Below the pieces are notes generated by a model that did not search any database, had not been told where the DNA came from, and worked only from the letters and a program-made list of their open reading frames with translations. From NCBI RefSeq assembly GCF_030463535.1, contig NC_132892.1:34792138-34856137 (forward strand): a DNA stretch of 64,000 nucleotides, given 5' to 3'. The stretch is from Salminus brasiliensis. Lineage: Eukaryota > Chordata > Actinopteri > Characiformes > Bryconidae. Of the stretch, positions 6,201 through 6,726 are shown piece after piece; the stretch's first letter is position 1, and the number at the start of each line of letters is the position of its first letter. The translations under genes were made by a program, and so were the position numbers.

Positions 6201-6387
6201 CACCTATTGTGGGCGGGGCTTGAAGTTGACCATTTGCATATTATTCATGTCCTGTCTCTCTGTCTCTGCCTCAGTGACACGGTGGATGAAGATGATGATC
6301 TGTACGACTGCGTGGAGGATGAAGAGAATGAGGGAGATGATATTTATGAAGACCTGATGAGGACAGAGGAACCTCCAGAGACAGTGA

Positions 6388-6442
<55 letters not shown>

Positions 6443-6493
6443 CAACCACATTCTACTGATTTGATACCAAAAGATGAAAAAACACTAATAGAA

Positions 6494-6553
<60 letters not shown>

Positions 6554-6726
6554 GTGTGTGTTCTCAGAAGGTTGAGGTGGATAAGAGGAGCTGCTGTCTG
6601 CAGGAGATTCAGCAGACTGAGGAGAAATACACACAAACACTGGAGTCTATACTGCAGGTACACAAGCACACACATACACACAAAAAGCTCACACACACAC
6701 ACAGCTCACACAGTTGCACTAAACCC

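Follow-up and report, generated by a model that had tools for sequence, protein, structure and literature searches.

The window, a 64,000-nucleotide stretch of Salminus brasiliensis DNA (C15:34792138-34856137 of a 1.07 Gb assembly), carries vav1 on the + strand. Spliced alignment to human VAV1, admitting only GT-AG introns, places exons 2-27 and 25 introns in the window, with numbering that starts at 2 for the first exon of the gene that the window contains. Small exons near 22761-22783, 23894-23933 and 34179-34210 are weakly aligned. Exons 5-7 match the PDB Vav1 chain 3ky9 (E 9.1e-36), and the spliced alignment agrees. Long tandem arrays stand before or inside vav1 introns (412-3062, 4346-5148, 6860-8507, 13476-19537, 24089-24955 and 26166-27128), as would fit a region rich in repeats some 2 Mb from a contig end. 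On the - strand within intron 20, an uninterrupted 356-residue frame (28887-29957) has Tc1/Sleeping Beauty-type transposase domain matches. Downstream genes contribute a PPIC-type rotamase exon at 53311-53526, which we take to be pin1, and a fibrinogen C-terminal domain exon at 62668-62940. A search of the window against Rfam at gathering thresholds returned 0 matches.

The features that concern us are two consecutive vav1 introns and the exon between them:

6275-6383, + strand: vav1 exon 5 (spliced alignment and PDB match)
6384-6567 (alternative end 6570), + strand: intron 5, an intron with a predicted AC...TG hairpin (sequence, fold and spliced alignment)
6389-6442, + strand: AC arm of intron 5 (TRF, 96% matches), with 49 perfect bases at 6389-6437
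6443-6494, + strand: loop of intron 5 (sequence and predicted fold)
6483-6489, + strand: candidate branch point CACTAAT of intron 5; A6488 is followed by 79 intron bases, with an AG two bases on
6495-6561, + strand: TG arm of intron 5 (TRF), consisting of 54 perfect bases, an interruption that includes one C, and 11 more perfect bases
6562-6570, + strand: acceptor TTCTCAG followed by AAG, a tandem NAGNAG; the alignment put the intron end at 6570
6568-6657, + strand: exon 6, of 90 bases and phase 0 on either side, where the DH domain begins (PDB match and spliced alignment)
6658-6774, + strand: intron 6, a second intron with a predicted AC...TG hairpin, -62.0 kcal/mol, z -3.85 (spliced alignment and fold)
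6660-6712, + strand: AC-rich arm of intron 6, interrupted (sequence and TRF)
6717-6723, + strand: CACTAAA, a possible intron 6 branch point and a near match by eye that is not YTNAY
6730-6769, + strand: TG arm of intron 6 (TRF)

An earlier, sequence-only reading of this DNA described intron 5 as bounded by AC and TG runs able to pair as one long hairpin. Sequence and TRF confirm where the runs lie, with the AC arm beginning five bases past the intron start and the TG arm stopping six bases before its end. The intron is predicted to fold as a single long AC-TG stem of -116.2 kcal/mol (z -7.8; shuffle mean -77.2), an energy that 0 of 200 shuffles equalled, and the corresponding value at 20 C is -148.5. 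The pyrimidine tract is as weak as had been claimed: by inspection, the TG repeat runs to 6561 and leaves only TTCTC before the final AG. A start of exon 6 directly after 6567, also part of that reading, is possible, but the tandem acceptor CAG|AAG allows the intron to end at either 6567 or 6570. NAGNAG acceptors occur at the exon 5/6 junction of three vav genes, namely vav1 (CAGAAG, 6565-6570) and the copies on contigs C5 (L002; CAGAAG) and C27 (L009; CAGCAG), and the choice between the two sites would lengthen or shorten the protein by one residue ahead of the DH domain.

The proposed distance of about 12 bases between donor and acceptor at the foot of the stem describes one predicted state of the RNA; in the fold of the isolated intron, donor bases from about 6385 on are instead paired with the acceptor UCUCA. 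When exon sequence is included, the GUGAG of the donor is mostly open in the fold of 6340-6600 (0.54-0.88 unpaired) and partly open in that of 6275-6657 (0.22-0.76 unpaired), and most acceptor bases are still paired.

Three YTNAY matches lie within 120 bases of the intron 5 acceptor: the candidate around A6488 and two others, at 103 and 108 bases. No A occurs in the TG arm, and the likeliest branch point, judged from the sequence, is in the hairpin loop. The AG that closely follows A6488 is presumably too near for use, and after it there is no further AG until the acceptor. With the stem complete, the candidate branch point would be about 50 base pairs away from both splice sites, which corresponds to over 100 angstroms of RNA helix. 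Because the branch point would sit in the loop, the stem could pair the splice sites early but would have to open, at least partly, before chemistry.

A finding new to this analysis is that intron 6 has the architecture of intron 5, which puts the in-frame exon 6 between two predicted hairpins. The nearest true YTNAY match in intron 6 is 66 bases from its end. Elsewhere in the gene, intron 25 combines a TG acceptor with a donor side that is AC-rich to a lesser degree. That the tracts fell into place by chance can be rejected: when the window's own 13 AC and 20 TG tracts were placed at random in 20,000 trials, at least one vav1 intron acquired both arms in 0.3% of trials and at least two did so in none, where vav1 has two.

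Folding the two introns together raises the question of partner choice among the four arms. The ensemble energy of 6360-6800 is -228.5 unconstrained, -227.7 without inter-intron pairs and -211.5 without intra-intron pairs. Similar values were obtained for 6384-6774 (-213.7 unconstrained, -211.2 with local pairing only, -196.8 with full exchange only) and for 6384-6790 (-215.9, -215.8 and -197.6, respectively). These energies suggest that a mixed partner-exchanged fold would match two local hairpins in stability to within method error, which a full exchange would not. In unconstrained folds of partial transcripts ending anywhere from 6567 to 6760, pairing between the two intron 5 arms (AC5-TG5) dominates with about 52-53 expected pairs; the expectation is 48.5 pairs for a transcript ending at 6774 and 34.8 for one ending at 6800. 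Local pairing is thus predicted to form first. Given its length and phase, skipping of exon 6 would stay in frame and would cost the protein the first part of its DH domain. The two-intron fold adds a possible exon-skipping geometry, and repeat-length variation, which the sequence-only reading had proposed as a modulator of DH-domain inclusion, could matter in that way. A true switch, in which local hairpins would favour inclusion of exon 6 and an exchange of partners (AC5-TG6 plus TG5-AC6) would loop it out to give an in-frame Vav1 without 30 DH-start residues, with repeat lengths setting the balance, seems to us highly improbable.

The architecture of introns 5 and 6 resembles that of a class of fish and lamprey introns reportedly characterized by Lin et al. 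in 2016 (Genome Res 26:12-23) as AC/GT-bridged and U2AF2-independent. Passages in three later papers, citing Lin et al., state that AC/GT tracts bridge introns in fish and lamprey and permit splicing without U2AF2 (PMC7404189, PMC9198270, PMC9508853). The class of paired AC/GT introns invoked in the sequence-only reading is the one that these passages describe, and intron 5 has its sequence features. Shared with the introns of Lin et al. 2016 are the donor AC, the acceptor GT, a predicted bridging stem and a poor pyrimidine tract. In vav1, however, two such introns flank a single in-frame exon, and the arms do not clearly co-occur beyond chance in our sample of introns. U2AF2 independence, stated in those passages for the class, is a possible property of introns 5 and 6.

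Two other systems provide partial parallels. The (TG)m repeat before CFTR exon 9 likewise places a TG repeat that is length-variable by nature just upstream of an acceptor, and intron 5 has the same kind of feature, a long UG tract that stops only a few bases short of its acceptor. Repression of the exon by TDP-43 binding is a further feature of the CFTR type. The passages on CFTR report a splicing effect and make no mention of an AC partner arm. In Schizosaccharomyces pombe, a passage in PMC9508853 describes introns in which structure bridges the branch point to a distant 3' splice site. RNA structure and a far branch point are common to both cases, but in S. pombe the fold forms between branch point and AG and brings the two closer. 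In intron 5 the TG arm would pair with bases 5' of the branch point and leave the branch point-acceptor distance unshortened. A literature search gave no title on intron 5 or on fish vav1 splicing among the matches listed.

We estimate a probability of about 0.5 that the adjacent introns 5 and 6 both belong to the AC/GT-bridged class known from fish, with arms derived from dinucleotide expansion and with pairing that favours removal of each intron as a unit. The arms would have arisen close to a chromosome end, where microsatellites abound. TG would be tolerated at acceptors because it is AG-free and half U, and AC at donors because it adds no GT. Once the TG arm was transcribed, the long arms of so short an intron would pair and bring donor and acceptor together, favouring intron definition, and the stem would then open at least partly, since its loop contains the branch point. 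Burial of the donor in the isolated fold and the roughly 50 base pairs that would separate a complete stem's foot from the branch point count against this explanation. A splicing role for the intron 5 pairing is plausible, and the tests bearing on it had a mixed outcome.

Part of that outcome comes from a comparison across genes. Our sample consisted of 357 retained introns from 15 genes of one genome (vav1 and 14 further vav and myosin genes, some of them partial), several of the introns resting on weak alignments, and an arm was by standard criterion a tract of at least 5 units within 40 bases of a splice site. TG tracts meet acceptors in 28 of the 357 introns and AC tracts in 0 (binomial p 7e-9), while donors have AC nearby in 15 and TG in 6 (binomial p 0.08). 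In vav1 alone, 9 of 25 introns have TG no more than 40 bases from the acceptor and 0 of 25 have AC there; at donors, AC is near 6 and TG near 2. A strand rule thus holds across genes, with TG at acceptors and AC mostly at donors.

Such a rule is also what would be expected if the arms were a by-product, with regional microsatellite load filtered independently at each splice site, the pairing incidental and intron 5 spliced independently of it. We would lean on this account only tentatively, but it is a serious rival, as local repeat load and a splice-site strand filter may be sufficient. The five genes rich in tracts are found 0.3-2.7 Mb from a contig end and the ten others at least 5.8 Mb inside. 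TG acceptors occur in 27 of 115 introns of the former and 1 of 242 of the latter, so that 27 of the 28 belong to the five near-end genes, a comparison that takes contig ends as chromosome ends, covers few genes from two families and uses a 2.7 Mb cut drawn after seeing the data, which weakens it as an argument for the by-product account. Intron tract density falls with distance from the contig end (Spearman -0.51, p 0.051). These patterns suggest that local mutation supplies the arms. Neighbouring tracts at most 400 bases apart in 354 kb of sequence show no preference for the AC-then-TG order that a hairpin intron has (7 AC-then-TG versus 14 TG-then-AC), which again favours an incidental origin.

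Co-occurrence of the two arms within introns also bears on the by-product account, and here the result depends on the count. When donor and acceptor ends were permuted among the introns of vav1 alone, total pairing energies were as low in 12% of permutations (p 0.12). The first 198 introns, unstratified, contained 4 introns with both arms against 1.8 expected (p 0.08), and 12 against 5.0 (p 0.0006) when tracts of at least 3 units were admitted. Since genes differ greatly in tract content, acceptor labels were shuffled within genes for the full 357 introns. This shuffle revealed no excess of two-armed introns at 5 or more units (4 versus 3.5 expected, p 0.49), the four being vav1 introns 5 and 6, one in the C27 vav copy and one in a C3 myosin, and a borderline one at 3 or more (12 versus 8.2, p 0.051). 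Extending the limit to 60 bases gave 5 versus 4.3 (p 0.43) and 13 versus 9.8 (p 0.11), respectively. Among introns of at most 500 bases in the five tract-rich genes, the comparison was 4 versus 1.7 (p 0.054), with p 0.13 for introns of at most 200 bases and p 0.095 for at most 1000. The within-gene tests are of low power; the absence of a clear excess in them favours the by-product account, and the unstratified and laxer counts, together with the short-intron result, speak against it.

The other vav copies provide a further point against an incidental origin. The C27 copy has AC near the donor and TG at the acceptor of the intron at the intron 5 position, and the corresponding C5 intron has a long TG tract at the acceptor and no AC arm. 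The two copies, presumably vav3-like, are sisters of each other (74% identity over 207 residues) and therefore do not count as two independent cases, and the comparison, made post hoc, is compatible with descent or recurrence alike. A copy on C18 is vav2 by PDB match (4roj, E 6.3e-59), and its exons 5-7 were not found in the genome stretches examined. Against the by-product account there is also the reported use of structure by such introns in the passages of PMC7404189, PMC9198270 and PMC9508853. If pairing matters, two hairpin introns round an in-frame exon would form a natural test bed with allele length as the variable, and the same repeats could either define introns or loop exon 6 out. 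If it is irrelevant, the strand rule and the clustering near contig ends would suggest that the published class may partly be a product of microsatellite load and splice-site filtering.

A less likely account, which may overlap the others, is that the arms act as protein-bound single strands, AC being bound by hnRNP L and UG by TDP-43 or a similar protein, and serve as intronic enhancers or repressors. AC and GT repeats are said to be intronic enhancers in fish (Yeo et al. 2004). In passages of recent studies, binding of human HNRNPL grows with AC length and that of TARDBP with GT length (PMC13174678), TDP-43 near splice sites represses them (PMC13343711), and UG repeats are enriched near human splice sites (PMC12276007). 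The two arms of one short intron are transcribed together, however, and their predicted duplex is very stable, which disfavours single-stranded binding. We consider it very unlikely that the UG tract forms a left-handed quadruplex (pUG fold) in place of AC pairing: according to passages in PMC12276007, 12 UG repeats are enough for one such fold and two may form from 24 or more, and the TG arms have about 27 and 20 units, but folding in vitro is slow there (half-lives of 13-30 min for 12-18 repeats in potassium) and a complementary AC arm lies 57 bases upstream.

We also searched the genome for similar arrangements. A strict bridged-intron pattern gave 0 matches and 0 controls, and was too strict in that it would miss intron 5 itself, with its AGGT-less donor and with repeats longer than the pattern allows. 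GTGAG followed by AC and then TG was seen at 15 places (43 rows collapsed by eye); these may not be introns and intron 5 is absent from them, and at least 8 are no more than 2.7 Mb from the start or end of a contig. In line with the strand rule, the motif (TG)9TAGG occurs 1635 times genome-wide, compared to 754 for the reversed letters, a rough control. The first 100 of the 1635 sites, all on the 99 Mb contig C1, include 20 in the first 5 Mb and 30 at 25-35 Mb (counted by eye), and the latter group might be the trace of an ancient fusion of chromosomes. Among the myosin sequences, C1:59424118-59426151 (L013) contains an uninterrupted 2047-residue frame for a full myosin heavy chain, an intronless copy.
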